Origin: Limnochorda pilosa
Lineage (GTDB): Bacteria; Bacillota; Limnochordia; Limnochordales; Limnochordaceae
Assembly (NCBI RefSeq): GCF_001544015.1
Contig: NZ_AP014924.1
Coordinates: 1,488,001 to 1,552,000 of the forward strand
Direction of reading: 5' to 3'
Length of the DNA stretch: 64,000 bases
A program made the position numbers and the translations under genes. Positions within the stretch are counted from its first letter, which is position 1. Each line of letters opens with the position of its first letter. Under the pieces are notes generated by a model. It had not been told where the DNA came from and did not search any database. It saw nothing but the letters and a program-made list of their open reading frames with translations. This document shows positions 43,853 through 53,167 of the stretch, in pieces.

Positions 43853-44374
43853 ATGAACTGGAGCTATCAGGTGATGCCGGGCCGGGAGCCCGTGCAGGTT
43901 CTTCCCCTGCCCGTGGCGCCGCGCCCCAGGCTCCGCCCCAGCCTACGTATCCTTCGCCTGATCGAGCTGATCCTGCGCAACATCCGGCGCAAGGAGCGTC
44001 AACTCGCACGAACCCGGCGGGAGGTGGACCGGCGCCTGCTGCGCCGGAGCATCGCAGCGGAGCGGAGGCAGCTCCGCCTGCTGCTGGGCATGCACGCGCG
44101 CTCGGCCGGGTTCGCGCCCTCGCTCTCGGAGATCCAGCCCATGGAGGAGCCAGCCGCAGCGGGTCCGACCGCGGCCGACGCAGAGGTGGCCGAGCTGATG
44201 GAGGGCGAGATGGAGGTGGCCGAGGAGCTGCGGGAGGCCATGGCCGAGGCCGACGATGAAGAAGCTCGCATGATGCTCATGGAGATGCACATGGAGACCA
44301 TGGAAACGCTGGCCGGGCTTGCGGCCATGGCCGGTATCCAGGGGACGGTCGCGGGGACGAGCCCCGGCGGGTGA
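43853..44374 (+). CDS. Unrecognised protein: basic helical N-half, Met/Glu-rich C-half
   Basis: 173 residues from ATG 43853 behind GGAGGTGG. Residues ~39-87 form an Arg-rich amphipathic segment (NIRRKERQLARTRREVDRRL, SIAAERRQLRLLLG). Residues ~105-160 are acidic and Met-rich (ELMEGEMEVAEELREAMAEA, MMLMEMHMETMETL). No signal peptide, no membrane helix. No family is recognised. The Arg-rich segment recurs at 45854-45997 in a decayed copy on the other side of the pentaheme cytochrome gene. The Met/His clusters might bind metal; this is speculation. Confidence 0.65.
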   Translation: MNWSYQVMPGREPVQVLPLPVAPRPRLRPSLRILRLIELILRNIRRKERQLARTRREVDRRLLRRSIAAERRQLRLLLGMHARSAGFAPSLSEIQPMEEPAAAGPTAADAEVAELMEGEMEVAEELREAMAEADDEEARMMLMEMHMETMETLAGLAAMAGIQGTVAGTSPGG

Positions 44375-44678
44375 GGCACCACCGGGTGCGGACGGGGAAC
44401 GGCGCGCCCGATCGCCCCGCCCGCGGGGAACCAGGCGGGTCCCGCCCTCGGGTGGAGACCCCATTTGGGGCTGGTGGGCAACCCACCCCGGGTGGGGACG
44501 ACTGCCCCTGGCTCCAGTTTCTGCCTGGATGATAGGCTGGAGACAGAAGCGCCGATGGGAACGCCCTCGCCGGGTGAGGCGGCCCTTCCGCCGACCCTGT
44601 ACGGGACGGGCCCATGCCGGCGCCCGGGGCAGCCGTTCGCTCTGAACGGCGGGCCCTACCACGAGCGAGGTGATCCGC
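44375..44678. other. Intergenic region with GC hairpins before cytochrome gene
   Basis: No gene is supported. GGTGGG-CAA-CCCACC (44473-44487) is a perfect short hairpin, followed by further inverted CTCCAG/CTGGAG arms near 44511-44543. No convincing -35/-10 pair is seen. Confidence 0.4.
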
Positions 44679-45692
44679 GTGACGAGCTTGGCACGACGCG
44701 GCCTGCGGCGTGGGGGTCTCCTGGCCGTACTCGTTTTCGTCCTCCTGGTGGTGGCTGCCGTCGCGCAGGCCGGGCCCAAGCAGGAGCTGGCCAACTCAGC
44801 CCACTCCACCCCTGTGGAGAGTGCGGCTACCCGGGCGGCCTGCGCCACCTGCCACGACGGCCCGACCTTTGCCGGTGAGCGGCCCGAGGGCGTGACCATC
44901 ACCGACCCCAAGGGCCTCTCATGCACCGACTGCCACGACTGGAGCGGCTCCCAGGCCCCCGAAGGCCTCAGGGTGTACGGGGAAGCGAAGCTGCCCAACG
45001 GGCTGGTGCTGCAGAACGGCTCCGCCGCCCTGTGCGTCACCTGCCACAACGGGCGGCGCGACACCGGCGACCCGAAGACCGCACAGGGCCTCTCGGCGCC
45101 CCACCGGAGCCCCCAGGGCGAGATGCTGGCGGGCACGGGGGCCTTTGAGTTTCCGGGGTACCGCTACACCAACTCGGTGCACACCACCCTGGAGGAGGGC
45201 TGCGTCGCCTGCCACATGGCACCCGGGCCGGCGGAGGGTGAGGCGCCCTTCGAGCGCATCGGGGGCCATACCTTCACCATGGCCTACGAAGGCACCGAGA
45301 ACCTGAACGCCTGCACCGACTGCCATCCGCTGGCCACGAGCTTCAACCGGCCCGCGACGGCGGACTGGGACGGCGACCGGCGACTGGAGGGCGTGCAGGA
45401 CGAGGTGCACGGGCTGGTCGAGCTCGTCAAGGGGGCCATCGAGGCTGCGCTGGACGGCGGCCGGGGCGGCGTGATCCACGAGTCCCACGGCGCGGTGGAG
45501 TTCCTGAAGAAGGATGGGCAGACCAAGCTCGAGGGCGTGCCCGAGTCCATCTACAAGGCCACCTACAACCTGCTCTTCGTGGAGAACGACGGTAGCCTGG
45601 GCATCCACAACACCGCCTACGCGGTGCAGCTCCTGCAGTCCTCGTATCAGGCGGTGACCGGGCATCCGGTGCCCGACGCGGCCATCCGCTGA
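44679..45692 (+). CDS. Secreted pentaheme c-type cytochrome
   Basis: 337 residues: signal peptide (GGLLAVLVFVLLVVAAVAQAG) then five CxxCH heme sites: CATCH, CTDCH, CVTCH, CVACH, CTDCH. The C-terminal ~80 residues (IYKATYNLLFVENDGSLGIHNTAYAVQLL) resemble the tail of multiheme nitrite/hydroxylamine-type cytochromes, where HN-(T/P)-x-Y helices pack the hemes. It functions outside the cytoplasmic membrane in electron transfer; the acceptor is unknown. GTG at 44679 (or 44670). It needs the CcmABCDE/TlpA machinery encoded in this window. Confidence 0.88.
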   Translation: MTSLARRGLRRGGLLAVLVFVLLVVAAVAQAGPKQELANSAHSTPVESAATRAACATCHDGPTFAGERPEGVTITDPKGLSCTDCHDWSGSQAPEGLRVYGEAKLPNGLVLQNGSAALCVTCHNGRRDTGDPKTAQGLSAPHRSPQGEMLAGTGAFEFPGYRYTNSVHTTLEEGCVACHMAPGPAEGEAPFERIGGHTFTMAYEGTENLNACTDCHPLATSFNRPATADWDGDRRLEGVQDEVHGLVELVKGAIEAALDGGRGGVIHESHGAVEFLKKDGQTKLEGVPESIYKATYNLLFVENDGSLGIHNTAYAVQLLQSSYQAVTGHPVPDAAIR

Positions 45693-45835: not shown

Positions 45836-45997
45836 ATGGGGCTGCTCACATCGCCGCTCCTGGCCAACATCCGGCGGGAGCAGCGGCTGCTCGCCCGTGC
45901 CCGCCGGCCGATAGACCGGCGTCTGCTGCAGCGAAGCATTGCCGCGGAACGCCGGCAGATTCGCCTGCCCCTGGGATTGAACTCGCGTGTTGGTTTC
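45836..45997 (+). pseudogene. Decayed partial copy of the unknown gene at 43853
   Basis: The frame from ATG 45836 gives LLANIRREQRLLARARRPID followed by RRLLQRSIAAERRQIRLPLG, about two-thirds identical over ~48 residues to residues 39-87 of the 43853 protein, then loses similarity. It lacks a ribosome site and both the N-terminal and Met-rich parts. The open frame continues to 46174 into the convergent TetR gene without homology. Codons differ widely from the parent, so the duplication is not recent. Confidence 0.65.
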
Positions 45998-46053: not shown

Positions 46054-46656
46054 CTACAGTAGCCCCACCACCGCTGCCGGCCCCCTGAAGACGATGCGGC
46101 TGATGAAGAGCGCCAGCTCGCTCGGGGAGTGCGCCATTCCCGTATCGAACCAGTGCTGGATGAGCCCCAGTTGAGCCGAGGTCGCAAAGGCGATCAGGTA
46201 GTCGGGGGGAATGAGCAACTCCGACGGCCTGGCGCGTCCGGAGAAGAGTTTGGGAAAGAGATGTGACGCCATGAGCTCCTTGATCTGCGCGGGAAAGGCC
46301 GGGTCGCCCTTGGGCCCCAGCATCGCCTTGAAGAAGGCCGCGTGCTGGGTCAGGTACTCCAGGATCGCGACGATCTGCGGGTAGGTTTCGTCTTGGGCAG
46401 CATAGGCCAGGAGTTCGAAGGGATCGGCCCGGTCCACCAGCTTGCGCAGCCCCTCCAGGACCTCGACCGTGTTCCGCTCGATGAAATCGTAGATGTCCCG
46501 GTAGTGCAGGTAGAAGGTCCCCCGGTTGATGTCCGCCCGCTCGCAGAGGCTGCTGACAGTGATCCGGTCGAGGCCTTCCTCGTCGATCAACTCCACCAGC
46601 GCCTGACGCAGCAGCCGGCGGGTCCGGCTCTTGCGGCGATCAACCCTGTCGGACAC
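46054..46656 (-). CDS. TetR/AcrR-family transcriptional regulator
   Basis: 200 residues from GTG 46656 (GGAGGG upstream); ATG 46683 is in frame. N-terminal helix-turn-helix: SRTRRLLRQALVELIDEEGLDRITVSSLCERADINRGTFYLHY, with the TetR FYLHYxDI ending. The C-terminal ligand domain (TetR_C-type) is typical. It is divergent from the MMPL exporter operon across 247 bp carrying a dyad, so it probably represses that operon and responds to an exported compound. Confidence 0.9.
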   Translation of the reverse strand: MSDRVDRRKSRTRRLLRQALVELIDEEGLDRITVSSLCERADINRGTFYLHYRDIYDFIERNTVEVLEGLRKLVDRADPFELLAYAAQDETYPQIVAILEYLTQHAAFFKAMLGPKGDPAFPAQIKELMASHLFPKLFSGRARPSELLIPPDYLIAFATSAQLGLIQHWFDTGMAHSPSELALFISRIVFRGPAAVVGLL

Positions 46657-46744
46657 GTTGGCCCGCCCTCCAGCCTCTTCCACGAAAGATAGACGATCGC
46701 CGGGCGCGATGACGACTAGACGGCATCCTGCCCATCATTGGTCA

Positions 46745-46794
46745 TTGCTCCCTCCGACCGCCTCAGTATACTTGATGGTGTAGCCATTAATCAA
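46745..46794 (+). promoter_or_regulatory. Exporter operon promoter with dyad (TetR operator candidate)
   Basis: TTGCTC (46745-46750) and TATACT (46767-46772), 16-bp spacer. Overlapping the start site, TTGAT (46772-46776) and ATCAA (46790-46794) with inner ATGG/CCAT arms (46775-46778, 46784-46787) form an imperfect palindrome. Confidence 0.5.
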
Positions 46795-46903
46795 CGCCAT
46801 GTTCATCTGGTGAGGAGGAATCCGTACACGCGGCGCCCGCACAGGCCGCTGGAGTTCCACGGTCGCGCCCGTGTTCTCGACGGACGGAGGCGGCACTGAT
46901 CCT

Positions 46904-49195
46904 ATGGCACGCTGGATCGAAGGCATGCTGCGTCATCCCAGGGCGGTGATCGCTGGGGCAGTCCTGCTCTCCCTACTGGGGGCGCTCGGCATCACCCGCA
47001 TCGAGATCGACGACCGTCTCGAAGCGCTGCTCCCGCCCGATATGGAGTCGCTGGTCGTCTGGCACGAGATCGAGGAGATCTTTGGCACCACGGAGCCCAT
47101 CGTGGTGGCAGCAGGGCGGGAGGGGGCCTCGATCTGGGACCCAACCACCCTGCGCACCGTGGACCAGCTCCGGGCGAGGCTCGAAGAGCTTCCCGAGGTC
47201 GACTCGGTGACCGGCATCACCAACGCGAACCACCTGATCGCCTCCGACTTCGGCTTCGAGGTCGGGCCCCTGCTGGAGATGGAGCGGCTTGAGGAGCCGG
47301 GCTACCTGCAGGCGGCACGCGGTGCGCTCGGCGGCAACGAGATGCTCCAGGCGCTGGTCTCCGAGGACGAGGCATACACCCTCCTCCTGGTCACCCTGCG
47401 GGTGGATGCCGACGAGGTGGCAGCAGGGCCCGCCATCCAGCGGGTCATCGATACTCTGGAGCCAGAGCTCGACGTCCATGTGGCCGGCACGCCCTTCTTC
47501 CTGGGCGTGATCGCGGAGGAGATCCGCGGCGACGTCCTGTCACTGGTCCGCTTCGTCTTCCTCGTGCTCTTCCTGGTGGTCCTCTTGAGCCTGCGTTCCC
47601 TCAAAGGCGCCCTCCTCACCATGGCAGTCATCGCGCTTACGGCCATGACCACCCTGGGGCTGATGGGGTGGACGGGAAACAAGTTCACCGTGGCCAACAC
47701 GTCGATGCCCATCGTGCTCCTGGCCATCGCCAGCGCCGATAGCATCCACATCATCACCCATTTCCTCCGACGGCTGCGCGCCCGCGGCGACGCCAGAGAA
47801 GCTGCGGCGGAGACCGTGCGTCACCTGATGCTGCCGGTCCTCCTCACATCGGTGACCACCGCCCTCGCCTTCCTCTCGCTCATCGGCTCGCCGATCACCG
47901 TCCTGGGCCCCTACGGCTACCTCACCGCCATCGGCGTCGGGTGGGCGTGGGTCCTGTCGGCCACCTTCCTTCCGTGCCTCCTTTCGATCTCCAGGTGGCC
48001 CGCCCATGGAGCCGTCCGGGGCGGGCAGGCCGCCCTGCGTACCTTCTGGTCGCGGCTGGCCGGCGTGGTGATCCGGCGCAGGGTTGCTATCACCGGGATT
48101 GCCACTCTTCTGGTGGTAGCGTCCGCCCTGGGAGTACCGCGCGTCCTGGTCGAGGTGAGCATGACCAGCATGCTCTCCCCCGAGAGCACCCTGCGGCAGG
48201 CGTCCAGCTTCCTCGACGAGCGGTTCAGCGCCGGCAGCAACCTGAGCCTGCTGGTGACGGGCGACCTCTATGATCCTGCGCTTCTCGAGGACATGCTGGA
48301 CGTAGAGGCGTTCATCGAGGGCGAAGAGGGCGTGGGGCACGCCCGCTCGATCGCGGATCTGGTTGCCAGCATGAACAAGGCGTTCAACGGCGAGGATCCG
48401 GCCTTCGAGCGGATCCCGGAGACACGGGAGGCGGTCGCCCAGTTGCTCCTGCTCTACTCCTTCTCTGGCGACCCGGCGGACCTGGAGCGGTTCGTCACCA
48501 CCGGCTACGACCGGGCCCAAATCTCCGTTCAGATGGAGTCTCTCTCCACCCAGCGGGTGAGCCGGATGGTGGACGATCTCAAGCGCTACCTCGAGGCCGA
48601 GAAGCCCGGCCTGCGCGCCGCCCCCACCGGGTTTGCCGTCTTCTTGCGGGATCTGGTACCGTTGGTGGTCCGCTCGTCGGTGACCAGCGTCATCGTTGCC
48701 CTCATCATCATGGTGCTCGTGGCCGGGATCGCCTTCCGATCGGCCCGCCTGGGGATCCTGACGGTGGTGCCCCTCGGTGCGACGGTGGTCCTCCTCTTCG
48801 GGATCATGGGGTGGACGGGAATCCCATTGAGCCACGTCAACGCGCTCATGGCGGCTATCGCCATCGGCGTGGGCGTCGACTACGCGATCCATTTCGTGGC
48901 GGCCTACCAGCGCCAGGGGAATGCCGGCCGTCGTCGGGAGGAGCGGGTGACCGGAGCCCTCATGGAGGTGGGGCCTCCAGTCGCCTTCAACGCCCTCTCG
49001 GTGGGCGGCGGCTTTGCGGTGCTGCTCGCCTCGCGCTTCGTCCCCATCTCGTTCCTGGGCGGGCTGGTCACCTTCGCGATGATCGTCTCCGCCCTGGGCG
49101 CCCTGATTCTGATCCCGTCCCTGCTCCTGATGGGCCGGGAGAAGGCGGCGACCAGGCCCGTCCCGAGCGATGCCGAAAGACCCGTTTCGGAGTGA
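46904..49195 (+). CDS. MMPL/RND superfamily exporter
   Basis: 763 residues with the duplicated RND layout: helix 1 (AVIAGAVLLSLLGALG), a large external domain, five helices with the SSD-like region (NTSMPIVLLAIASADSIHIITHFLRRL), then a repeat (VAITGIATLLVVASALG, second external domain, MAAIAIGVGVDYAIHFVAAYQRQ). The Asp in ASADS and GVGVDYAIH are the proton-relay positions of this class. It exports lipids or hydrophobic compounds. It belongs to the COG1033-like proteins usually found with LolA-like and barrel genes, as here. ATG 46904; GTG 46871 is an alternative. Confidence 0.9.
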   Translation: MARWIEGMLRHPRAVIAGAVLLSLLGALGITRIEIDDRLEALLPPDMESLVVWHEIEEIFGTTEPIVVAAGREGASIWDPTTLRTVDQLRARLEELPEVDSVTGITNANHLIASDFGFEVGPLLEMERLEEPGYLQAARGALGGNEMLQALVSEDEAYTLLLVTLRVDADEVAAGPAIQRVIDTLEPELDVHVAGTPFFLGVIAEEIRGDVLSLVRFVFLVLFLVVLLSLRSLKGALLTMAVIALTAMTTLGLMGWTGNKFTVANTSMPIVLLAIASADSIHIITHFLRRLRARGDAREAAAETVRHLMLPVLLTSVTTALAFLSLIGSPITVLGPYGYLTAIGVGWAWVLSATFLPCLLSISRWPAHGAVRGGQAALRTFWSRLAGVVIRRRVAITGIATLLVVASALGVPRVLVEVSMTSMLSPESTLRQASSFLDERFSAGSNLSLLVTGDLYDPALLEDMLDVEAFIEGEEGVGHARSIADLVASMNKAFNGEDPAFERIPETREAVAQLLLLYSFSGDPADLERFVTTGYDRAQISVQMESLSTQRVSRMVDDLKRYLEAEKPGLRAAPTGFAVFLRDLVPLVVRSSVTSVIVALIIMVLVAGIAFRSARLGILTVVPLGATVVLLFGIMGWTGIPLSHVNALMAAIAIGVGVDYAIHFVAAYQRQGNAGRRREERVTGALMEVGPPVAFNALSVGGGFAVLLASRFVPISFLGGLVTFAMIVSALGALILIPSLLLMGREKAATRPVPSDAERPVSE

Positions 49196-49254
49196 GGCGT
49201 TCAGGCGCCCGCAGCGGCGCCCGCAGAGCAAGCACGATGGAAGGAGCGAGCAGC

Positions 49255-50049
49255 GTGCGGAGAGGTTGGAGCGGGCTGGCAGCCCTGGCAGTATTCCTGG
49301 TCCTGGCAATGGCAACGGCGGCGGCCCTTCTACCCACCGAAGGGCTCGCTCAGACCATGAGCGCCCGGGAGATCGTCGAGCGGTCCGAGAACCGGCCGGA
49401 ACCCAGAGACCTGGCAGCAACCCAGACGATTCGGCTCATCTCCCAGGCGGGGGGCGAGCGATCGATGCAGATGCAGACCTTCCGCCGAGGCGACGAGCGG
49501 ATGATCCTCTGGTTCGTCGCTCCCGGCGAGGTTCGAGGGACGTCGCTCCTGCGGGTGGAGCGTGAAGACGGTGAAGCCGACATCTGGCTCTACCTGCCGG
49601 CGATGAGGCGGACGCGGCGGGTGAGCGGGTCGGCCCAGTCGGGCAGCTTCATGGGGACCGACTTCTCCTACAACGACATGGGGCGCCGCCGCCTGGACGA
49701 CTACGAGTACACCCTGGTGGACGAGGCGGAACTGGACGGCGAGGCGGTCTGGGTGATCGAGATGGTCCCCCGTGCCGGGGTGGAGAGCGACTACAGTCGC
49801 ATCCGGCGGTACATCCGAATGTCAGACTTCGTGACCCTCCAGGAGGACCTCTACGACGGGGCGACCCTGTGGAAGGTGATGACCGTCGGGGACATCCATC
49901 AGATCGGCGGGTACACGCTGCCGGGACGGCTGGAGATGGTCGACGTGGTGAAGAACCACCGCACGGTGATGACCTTCGACGAGATGGCCGTCGACCAGGG
50001 CATCGACGAGAGCTTCTTCTCCCCCCGCAGCCTGGAACGGATCCCGTAG
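49255..50049 (+). CDS. Outer membrane lipoprotein-sorting (LolA-like) periplasmic protein
   Basis: 264 residues: signal peptide (GLAALAVFLVLAMATAAALLP, cleavage near LAQ) and a LolA/LolB-type fold: MQTFRRGDERMILWFVAPGEVRGTSLLRVE, WLYLPAMRRTRRVSGSAQSGSFMGTDFSYNDM, and YTLVDEAELDGEAVWVIEMVP. Such proteins carry lipidic cargo between membranes and pair with MMPL exporters. GTG at 49255 has GGAAGGAG nine bases upstream; ATG 49237 lies in that site. Second gene of the three-gene exporter operon. Confidence 0.88.
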   Translation: MRRGWSGLAALAVFLVLAMATAAALLPTEGLAQTMSAREIVERSENRPEPRDLAATQTIRLISQAGGERSMQMQTFRRGDERMILWFVAPGEVRGTSLLRVEREDGEADIWLYLPAMRRTRRVSGSAQSGSFMGTDFSYNDMGRRRLDDYEYTLVDEAELDGEAVWVIEMVPRAGVESDYSRIRRYIRMSDFVTLQEDLYDGATLWKVMTVGDIHQIGGYTLPGRLEMVDVVKNHRTVMTFDEMAVDQGIDESFFSPRSLERIP

Positions 50050-50080
50050 ACGTACCCCGGGCCGACTGGAGGTGTCCTTG

Positions 50081-51346
50081 GTGACCCACGGACCAACCGA
50101 TCGCTGGACGATTCTTCGCCCCGTACTCGTCGTGACTCTTGCCGCGGCCCTGGTTTTCGTCGGACCCGAGGCGGTGTGGGCTTCCGGGGTCGGCTACGTG
50201 GGGAGCGTCAGCCCCCGGATCACCCTGGATCCGGAGGATGGCTGGAGGAGCGTGCCCGACGCCTACCGGCTGGCCCAGCTGGCGCTCTTCTCGTCCACCG
50301 ATCGGTTCGGCTGGTACCTCTCGGGATCGGCCGAGAGCCGCGGCGGGAACCAGGAGATCGATCTCGCCCTGGGCGAGGCGTACGTGGACGCCTACCTCCC
50401 CCGGGTGGACCTGCGACTCGGGCGCCAGCTGGTCGCATGGGGAACGGTGGACGGCAACAACCCGGTGGACAACCTGAACCCTGCGGACCTCACCCTCTTC
50501 TCGTCGGCAACGGAGCCGGCCGAGGCCAAGGTTCCCCTCGCCGCGCTGCGGGCCGTCTCCTACTGGGGAACCTACCAGGACCTGCGGGCCGAGCTGGTGC
50601 TGTTGCCCGAGTTTCGCGGGCACGGACTGCCCGAGAGTCCCCCTCTGACGTTCCCGGTGGAGGAGCCCGAGGTGGACCTCCTGGCGCCGGACTGGGGCGT
50701 GCGGGTCCAGCGCAGCTTCGACCGGTTCGACCTCGCGCTCTCGTACTATGACGGCCACGAGCGCATGCCCACGCCGGATCCGACCGTTCCGCCCTCCGCT
50801 GCGCACTACCTGCCCGTGCAGGTTCTGGGCCTGGAAGGGGCCGTCTTCGACCTGGGCGACCTGACGCTTCGGGGGGAGGCCGCCTACTTCCTGACAGCCG
50901 ACGAGGACGCCTTCATGCAGGTGAAGAACCCTTACCTCCAGTACGCGCTCCAGCTCGAGTACCTGTGGGGTATGGAGACCACTCTGATGCTCCAGTACCT
51001 GGGATCCCATGTGACCGGCATCGACAGCCCGGCCGAGGAGGAGTCTCAGGAGGAGATCCCCTTCCGTGCCGGGGCGCCCCTCTTCAACCTGGACAGCCGC
51101 GCCGTCGCCCTTGGCCTCCGCCACGAGACGACGTGGCTCAACGTGAGGCCTCTCGCCCTGATCTGGCAGGGCGTCCTGGGCCTCGACCGGGGAGGCTTCC
51201 TCACCGGCGCCACCCTGGACCTCTCCCTGACCGACAGCCTCTCCCTGGGGCTCGGGGCGAGGATCGCCCGGGGGCTTGAAGGGACCCCTTTGGCTGCCGT
51301 GGGCCAGGCGGGCCGGGTCTGGACCGGGGTGGAGTACAGCTTCTAG
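50081..51346 (+). CDS. DUF1302-like outer-membrane beta-barrel protein
   Basis: 421 residues: signal peptide (VLVVTLAAALVFVGPEAVWA) and alternating-strand sequence throughout, ending in VWTGVEYSF, a C-terminal Phe as in BAM-dependent outer-membrane proteins. RVDLRLGRQLVAWGTVDGNN with PVDNLNPADL is the DUF1302-type motif. GTG 50081 with GGAGG eight bases upstream; the frame opens at 50072. It follows the MMPL and LolA-like genes, completing an inner-membrane, periplasm, outer-membrane route. This is direct evidence that the cell has an outer membrane. Confidence 0.85.
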   Translation: MTHGPTDRWTILRPVLVVTLAAALVFVGPEAVWASGVGYVGSVSPRITLDPEDGWRSVPDAYRLAQLALFSSTDRFGWYLSGSAESRGGNQEIDLALGEAYVDAYLPRVDLRLGRQLVAWGTVDGNNPVDNLNPADLTLFSSATEPAEAKVPLAALRAVSYWGTYQDLRAELVLLPEFRGHGLPESPPLTFPVEEPEVDLLAPDWGVRVQRSFDRFDLALSYYDGHERMPTPDPTVPPSAAHYLPVQVLGLEGAVFDLGDLTLRGEAAYFLTADEDAFMQVKNPYLQYALQLEYLWGMETTLMLQYLGSHVTGIDSPAEEESQEEIPFRAGAPLFNLDSRAVALGLRHETTWLNVRPLALIWQGVLGLDRGGFLTGATLDLSLTDSLSLGLGARIARGLEGTPLAAVGQAGRVWTGVEYSF

Positions 51347-51472
51347 GGTGTGGGGCGGGGGCCCCGCTGTGAGCACCGGCTTCCGCTACTGGCGCTCAAC
51401 CTGACGGCAGCCCCGGACGAAAGGGGGAGTAAGGCGAGGCATCACGTGGTGTGAAGCGAGGCTGACGGGACC

Positions 51473-53167
51473 ATGAAGGGCCGACCGCGCCGGATCCTGC
51501 TCATACTTCCTCTTCTTCTCTGGACATGGTGGGCGGGACCGATCCGGGCCGACGAGGCCGCCCGGATGATCGAAGAACCCGGCTTGCATGGCAGCCATGG
51601 TCTGGTAGGCGACCCAACCAACCCCTTGACGGGTGAGTACCTCTTCAGCCGGACGGACCTTACCGTCCCCGGAGTCGGCATCCCCTTCGAGTTCACCCGG
51701 GCCTATGGATCCAACTCGTCGATCAACGGGCCGCTGGGTCCCAAGTGGACCCACACGTACAACCGGACGCTCACGATGCTTTGGAACTACTCCATGGATG
51801 TCCGGGACGAGCAGGGGCGCAGGTGGCACTACCGCTTCATACCGGATCCCGAGATCCCCGTGGACTCCTTCGACGGGGACCCTTTGATCGAGATAAGCCT
51901 CGATCTGGGGTACTTCGTCTCCAGCGTACTCAACTCCAACACCCTGCACCGCAACCTGGACGGGACGTATGTGGAGCGCACCAAGGAAGGTCTGGAGTAC
52001 CATTACGACGGGTACTGGGCGAAATGGCGGGGCGAGAACCAAAAACCGACGGCGGGCAAGCTCCTGTCCATCACCGATCGCAACGGCAACCGCATCAGCC
52101 TCACCTACGATGAGGAGGGGCGGCTGATCCGGGTTGAAGACACCGTCGGCCGCAGGTACGACCTCTTCTATGAAGGGCATCTCCTGGTGGAGCTCAGGGA
52201 CCCAGAGGATCGCCGGTGGCGCTACGGCTACGACGAGTCGGGGCGCCTGACGCAGGTTGCGAACCCCATCGGGGCCATCTGGCAGTTCGCGTACGACTCC
52301 GAGGGCCGGATGACCCGGCGTACGAGCCCCTTGGGGCCGAGCGTCCGGTATCGGTACGACGAAGAGGGGCGAGTGAGCGAGGTCTTCGGGCTGGACGGGT
52401 CGCTGATCAACCGCTTCCGGTATGAGCGGGGCGATCTCCTGCGCACCGAGTACACGGACATGGCGGGTGGAAAGACGGTCTACGTCTTCGACGCCACGGG
52501 GCACCTCATCGAGGTGCAGCACCCGTCGGGCGGCGTGACCCAGCACGAGTACGATGACGGCTTCAACCGGATACGATCGGCCTACTCTGAGGAGGGAGAG
52601 ACGAGGGCCCGCTACGACGAACGGAAGAACGTGGTCGAGTGGTTCGAGCCGTCGGGGGAGGCCTACCGTTTCACCTACGAGCCGGATTTCAACGGGGTCA
52701 CCCGAATCGTCGACGGGCGCGGGAACGTGACGGAGCTGACGTATGACGACCGAGGCAACCTGATCCGGGTCGTCGACCCGCAGAACGGGACGACACGCTA
52801 TACGTACCACCGCAACGGGCTGCCGGCGACGGTCACCGATCCCGAAGGGCGCGTCACTGCCTTCGTCTATGACGAGCAGGGCAACCTCGTCACCCGCATG
52901 GAGCACGACGGGGCGCTGACCCGCTACACCTACGACGGCCTCGGCAACCTGCTGAGCGAGACCGATCCCGCGGGGCGGACGACCCGGTACCACTACGACG
53001 AGCTCGGACAGGTGGTCCGGGTGGACGAACCGTCGGGCGCACAGCATCGCTACACCTATGACCTGGAGGGGAACCTGGTTGCCTACGAGGATCCCTCCGG
53101 GAGGATTCACCGATGGCCGTACGATCGCCTAGGGCGAACCTGGCCCTCCCTCGGGGAGATAGACTAG
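51473..53167 (+). CDS. Truncated Rhs/YD-repeat protein
   Basis: 564 residues: signal peptide (RRILLILPLLLWTWWAGPIR), a conserved Rhs N-terminal segment (NPLTGEYLFSRTDLTVPGVGIPFEFTRAYGS, GWKW-like GPKWTHTYN), then about 14 YD repeats (YDEEGRLIRVEDTVGRRYDL, YDGLGNLLSETDPAGRTTRY, YDELGQVVRVDEPSGAQHRY). It stops at GRTWPSLGEID with no core terminus and no toxin tip. No repeats continue in other frames after 53167, so the 3' part is missing, not frameshifted. It could be a remnant or a short secreted variant. Confidence 0.82.
   Translation: MKGRPRRILLILPLLLWTWWAGPIRADEAARMIEEPGLHGSHGLVGDPTNPLTGEYLFSRTDLTVPGVGIPFEFTRAYGSNSSINGPLGPKWTHTYNRTLTMLWNYSMDVRDEQGRRWHYRFIPDPEIPVDSFDGDPLIEISLDLGYFVSSVLNSNTLHRNLDGTYVERTKEGLEYHYDGYWAKWRGENQKPTAGKLLSITDRNGNRISLTYDEEGRLIRVEDTVGRRYDLFYEGHLLVELRDPEDRRWRYGYDESGRLTQVANPIGAIWQFAYDSEGRMTRRTSPLGPSVRYRYDEEGRVSEVFGLDGSLINRFRYERGDLLRTEYTDMAGGKTVYVFDATGHLIEVQHPSGGVTQHEYDDGFNRIRSAYSEEGETRARYDERKNVVEWFEPSGEAYRFTYEPDFNGVTRIVDGRGNVTELTYDDRGNLIRVVDPQNGTTRYTYHRNGLPATVTDPEGRVTAFVYDEQGNLVTRMEHDGALTRYTYDGLGNLLSETDPAGRTTRYHYDELGQVVRVDEPSGAQHRYTYDLEGNLVAYEDPSGRIHRWPYDRLGRTWPSLGEID

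Follow-up and report, generated by a model that had tools for sequence, protein, structure and literature searches.

A LolA-fold carrier and a beta-barrel in a predicted inner-to-outer-membrane export route of the diderm Limnochorda pilosa

Three adjacent genes of Limnochorda pilosa, encoding an inner-membrane exporter, a periplasmic carrier and an outer-membrane barrel, on balance probably form an export route that takes a lipid or a small, hydrophobic or amphiphilic compound from the inner to the outer membrane, judging by protein families, folds and genomic context. The genes lie at positions 46904–51346 of the window, the whole 64,000-nucleotide stretch analysed here, which belongs to a complete contig of 3,817,036 bases. 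They are consecutive and co-directional on the plus strand, and Pfam profiles confirmed all three as originally predicted: an exporter, a LolA-like protein and a DUF1302-like barrel with a terminal Phe. The new element is the comparative picture, in which one carrier–barrel pair is combined with two types of motor. The module and its surroundings comprise the following features:

46054–46683, minus strand: TetR-family regulator, divergent from the module (PF00440, E = 9e-7; PF14278, E = 2.9e-16)
46684–46903: divergent intergenic region, in which promoters and a TetR operator would be expected from its position
46904–49195, plus strand: HAE3/MMPL-type RND inner-membrane exporter, 763 amino acids (PF03176 MMPL, E = 1e-42)
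49237–50049, plus strand: LolA-fold periplasmic carrier (PF17131, E = 1.1e-55; DUF1329 weaker, E = 4.8e-11)
50081–51346, plus strand: DUF1302-family outer-membrane beta-barrel (PF06980, 33.2 bits against a cut-off of 23.2)

The best NCBIfam model for the exporter, TIGR00921 (HAE3), scored 238 bits, below its cut-off of 351.9, which is a point against the export route; the RND paralogue at locus L013 exceeded the cut-off with 370.1 bits. A hydropathy scan of the window exporter found ten hydrophobic segments against the 12 expected of an RND protein; both of the segments in which the relay normally lies contain an Asp. The carrier begins at 49237, or alternatively at a GTG at 49255, and its N-terminus is a hydrophobic helix. 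The barrel begins at 50081, although an in-frame GTG at 50072 is another conceivable start; the protein contains the motif GRQLVAWG and ends in Y-S-F. The intergenic gaps measure 41 bp (exporter to carrier) and 22–31 bp (carrier to barrel). For the TetR operator, a repeat scan of 46684–46903 gave no inverted repeat. Directly downstream of the barrel, positions 51473–53167 encode a 564-amino-acid RHS/YD-repeat protein with DUF6531, repeats and no other clear domain. Upstream of the module, a 135-nt direct repeat with 74% identity (43966–44100 and 45853–45987) flanks a multihaem cytochrome-like gene at 44670–45692.

The predicted structures agree with these assignments. The protein at 50081, proposed earlier as a beta-barrel, was modelled as an all-beta, barrel-like fold of about 16–18 long strands (pTM 0.81). 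Its best Foldseek matches were outer-membrane porins and the alginate exporter AlgE (TM about 0.5), and searches of its sequence against PDB sequences were uninformative. The carrier model (pLDDT 90, pTM 0.79) is closest to LolA3 of Porphyromonas gingivalis (9tp6, PMC13103446), the nearest solved structure, with a TM score of 0.84 on the target; this LolA3 binds P. gingivalis LolB very weakly.

In the proposed route, for which we infer direction, energy source, order of hand-over and TetR control, the proton gradient would power the RND protein as it extracts its substrate from the inner membrane on the periplasmic side. The LolA-fold protein would then take the substrate into its cavity and ferry it across the periplasm, and the barrel would accept it and either insert it into the outer membrane or let it through. 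The divergent TetR protein would govern expression of the module. The route is proposed on what was observed directly (gene identities, gene order, predicted folds, recurrence and outer-membrane co-occurrence), namely the gene families and their adjacency, three further copies in the genome and co-occurrence with Omp85 across the phylum. To these we add the adjacency of RND and carrier genes elsewhere, homologous barrels, motor-faithful carriers, the LolA3-like and porin-like folds, and hydrophobe export by the related AmeABCD system.

The genome carries four PF17131 genes (in the window and at loci L013, L014 and L015), all in the same arrangement: an inner-membrane transporter gene precedes, and the gene that follows encodes a predicted barrel whose last residue is Phe. 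Chance adjacency of the three genes is ruled out, because the carrier–barrel order recurs three more times in the genome and at about 100 loci elsewhere. The transporter is an RND pump in the window, L013 and L015; of the genome's seven MMPL matches, six fall in these three RND genes. In L014, an ABC ATPase and two FtsX-type permeases take its place. Only the window barrel passed the DUF1302 cut-off; that of L015 fell slightly below, and those of L013 and L014 had no match to the profile. All four barrels can nevertheless be aligned, and three keep a GRQ-x-x-x-WG motif.

To place the module within the phylum, we surveyed 398 genomes, counting PF17131 matches with E < 1e-20 as strong. Such matches occurred in 73 genomes, 72 of which also encode Omp85; the exception, G366, has LpxC. 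A further 30 genomes have Omp85 and no strong PF17131 match. The co-occurrence gave a Fisher value of 1.5e-53, which overstates independence as the genomes are mutually related. LpxC was undetected in 13 of the 73 genomes; we therefore reject a module tied to LPS, and the pairing of a LolA-fold carrier with a barrel is not bound to it.

Gene neighbourhoods were compared at 124 Bacillota loci (120 from other genomes and the four of L. pilosa). The gene upstream of the carrier encodes an RND protein at 64 loci and an ABC–FtsX transporter at 49; nine loci have neither in this position and two lie at contig ends. Where the downstream gene was complete (108 loci), it matched a barrel profile in 96 cases and ended in Phe, Trp or Tyr in 93. 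A hidden Markov model of the RND-module barrels matched 33 of 36 ABC-module barrels and none of the reversed or shuffled controls; judged by sequence, the barrels of the two module kinds are homologous. In a carrier tree of 178 rows, the RND/ABC label switches once (support 89); on this tree, carriers are faithful to their motor type. Since they fall into separate groups, RND and ABC modules may serve different cargo. The two kinds occur together in 30 of 68 genomes. A TetR-like gene is found no more than 5.5 kb from 29 of the 64 RND modules and from nine of the 49 ABC modules. TetR is the sole neighbour that recurs across many families, so no biosynthetic enzyme hints at the cargo, which is a further point against the export route. 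At two loci, L161 (genome G321) and L159 (genome G117), the PF17131 carrier is followed by an Omp85-family protein of 464–482 amino acids that replaces the DUF1302-type barrel.

Chiefly beyond the phylum, 80 named loci came mostly from Bacteroidota, and also from Deinococcota, Spirochaetota, Calditrichota, Cloacimonadota and others, with one named locus from Halanaerobiales. An RND gene lies directly upstream of the carrier in 66 of the 80, usually with the barrel after it, while several loci are ordered carrier–barrel–RND. With RND beside the carrier at so many loci, the RND module is widespread and not special to the L. pilosa genome.

The window copy is sister to modules of Electryoneota and Calditrichota, with support of 93 in the RND tree and 96–97 in two concatenated trees, one of them under a mixture model. 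L013 and L015 cluster with Bacillota in the RND and concatenated trees. AU tests rejected trees that hold the window copy in the core Bacillota clade (p = 0.0006), and likewise trees that join it to two further copies, of which one is from the same order (p = 0.006). For the window copy, simple vertical descent is thus rejected, subject to its long branch, to outgroup loci picked for their resemblance to its carrier and to groups named after the trees were built. By this grouping, the window module may well have been imported.

The closest characterised system is AmeABCD of Castellaniella defragrans, a hydrophobe exporter composed of an HAE3 pump, a LolA-superfamily protein, a DUF1302 protein and AmeC, whose deletion lowers monoterpene tolerance (PMC6394551). 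Both systems encode an RND pump, of putative HAE3 type in the window copy, together with a LolA-superfamily periplasmic protein and a DUF1302 barrel. The window module differs in its PF17131 carrier (with DUF1329 the weaker match), its gene order and its adjacent TetR gene, and no monoterpene island was seen; AmeC (COG4447/YCF48-like) has no counterpart gene from 46054 to 53167. In Pseudomonas putida, DUF1302 and DUF1329 proteins have been proposed as a transport system, in which PP_0765, PP_0766, PP_2018 and PP_2019 (a DUF1302 barrel, a DUF1329 carrier and an efflux transporter) are tied by phenotype and co-folding, although they occupy two separate loci and include an additional periplasmic protein (PMC10866462). 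The P. gingivalis operon PG1175–81 and similar Prevotella operons likewise combine genes for TetR, for an MMPL exporter and for what annotation calls an outer membrane lipoprotein-sorting protein, but carry extra ABC ATP-binding proteins, and their remaining genes are listed as hypothetical (PMC10434189). The HpnN hopanoid and BstA sterol exporters share the MMPL/HAE3-type RND architecture of a lipid-exporting branch; the window exporter matched them weakly, far below the cut-off for HpnN. Hopanoids are an unlikely cargo, as no squalene–hopene cyclase (PF13243) was found anywhere in the genome.

The L014 copy raises the question of a relationship to the LolCDE–LolA–LolB system, with which the modules share a LolA-fold carrier. 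We consider it unlikely that they traffic a lipoprotein or membrane lipid in a Lol-like manner, with the barrel replacing LolB as acceptor and the RND and ABC proteins acting as two motors for one job. In favour of this, the ABC transporter that L014 has where the other copies have RND pumps is LolCDE/MacB-like. Its permeases and ATPase, however, lie far under the Lol cut-offs (LolCE, 91.5 and 133.9 against 362.45; LolD, 217.8 against 307.75), and RND and ABC carriers form separate tree groups. Canonical LolA (PF03548) had no match across the whole genome, an absence that favours Lol-like trafficking and also sets the window module apart from LolCDE–LolA–LolB, as do its RND motor and the barrel in the place of LolB. 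To our knowledge, no RND protein powers lipoprotein transport, which counts against this alternative. In its favour, the ABC version resembles the LolA–LolC/E–LolD cluster lacking LolB that Antunes 2016 proposed for Halanaerobiales (PMC5007114). Deletion of lolA3 in Flavobacterium johnsoniae, by contrast, left gliding and secretion unaffected (PMC11885536).

A lower probability still attaches to a continuous efflux pump against toxic hydrophobic compounds, in which the LolA-fold protein would be a fixed adaptor between pump and barrel and not a shuttle. The authors of the AmeABCD study suggest such a role for AmeB and AmeC (PMC6394551), PP_0766 is predicted to contact a pump and its barrel (PMC10866462), and a TetR gene adjoins the pump gene here. 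The carrier, however, folds like a LolA-type cavity protein and not like the barrel-sandwich adaptors of known tripartite pumps, and the window module lacks AmeC. An inward route, in which lipids such as fatty acids would enter through the barrel while carrier and pump serve in uptake or redistribution, is improbable. In its favour, growth on Tween 20 requires PP_0765/PP_0766, of the same two superfamilies, which uptake would fit too and which thus counts against export (PMC10866462), and the barrel model resembles the substrate-specific porins OpdK and OccK, but RND pumps characterised so far export, dye accumulation rose on Ame deletion (PMC6394551) and the ABC version falls in the LolCDE/MacB export class.

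These findings make it testable how such cells bring lipids and lipophiles to their outer membrane, and offer the barrel as a definite candidate for the acceptor. More tentatively, diderm Bacillota, including Limnochordia, could have kept old Lol-like routes whose LolA-fold carrier passes lipidic cargo on to a dedicated beta-barrel and whose power comes from two long-separated types of motor, a proton-driven RND pump and an ATP-driven LolCDE-like transporter; we hold this possible but doubtful. If true, it would contradict the published view, given in a review, that among diderm Terrabacteria a Lol-like cluster or pathway occurs in Halanaerobiales/Halanaerobia only.

The module had originally been taken, together with Firmicute genes in the window, to indicate a diderm of a sporulating lineage. 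The genome, surveyed by protein-family searches, supports this. It encodes a BamA-type Omp85 (E = 4.6e-51) and, close by, LpxC (E = 1.2e-67) and LpxD (above its cut-off), as well as FlgI, two TolC/OEP genes, Spo0A and a YtrH above the Pfam cut-off. Among the outer-membrane genes proposed as a check, bamA and tolC homologues were thus present, so that the diderm reading withstood its first refuting condition, a genome lacking BamA/Omp85, while a PF04453 search of the genome for LptD gave no match, with a model that also misses Bacteroides and cyanobacterial controls. The expected ytrH/ytrI pair held for YtrH, the supposed YtrI gene having no Pfam or NCBIfam match; of PerR and CsoR, the PerR-like gene encodes a FUR-family protein, and the CsoR-type gene resembles RicR, below the RicR cut-off. 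The diderm inference is right yet not new, since L. pilosa is already a known diderm and Limnochordia have been published as such (PMC11456536, PMC11448272). Because the flagged module groups with Calditrichota and Electryoneota copies, it argues only weakly for an inherited outer membrane, to which the paralogous modules bear better witness; the lineage placement rests on same-order and same-class kin, Spo0A and YtrH.

Three further observations concern the same genome. A 1361-amino-acid frame on the minus strand (L018:9491–13576; G000:C1 about 2,826,500–2,830,600) joins a C45/AAT-type hydrolase domain, TPR repeats and an Omp85 barrel domain. Genes for TolC, an HlyD-type adaptor, an ABC ATPase and a MacB-like permease lie at L016:6938–15715 and seem to form two sets, one after the other. 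An open frame of 628 amino acids encodes a further Spo0A C-terminal domain, at G000:C1:1696241–1696549.
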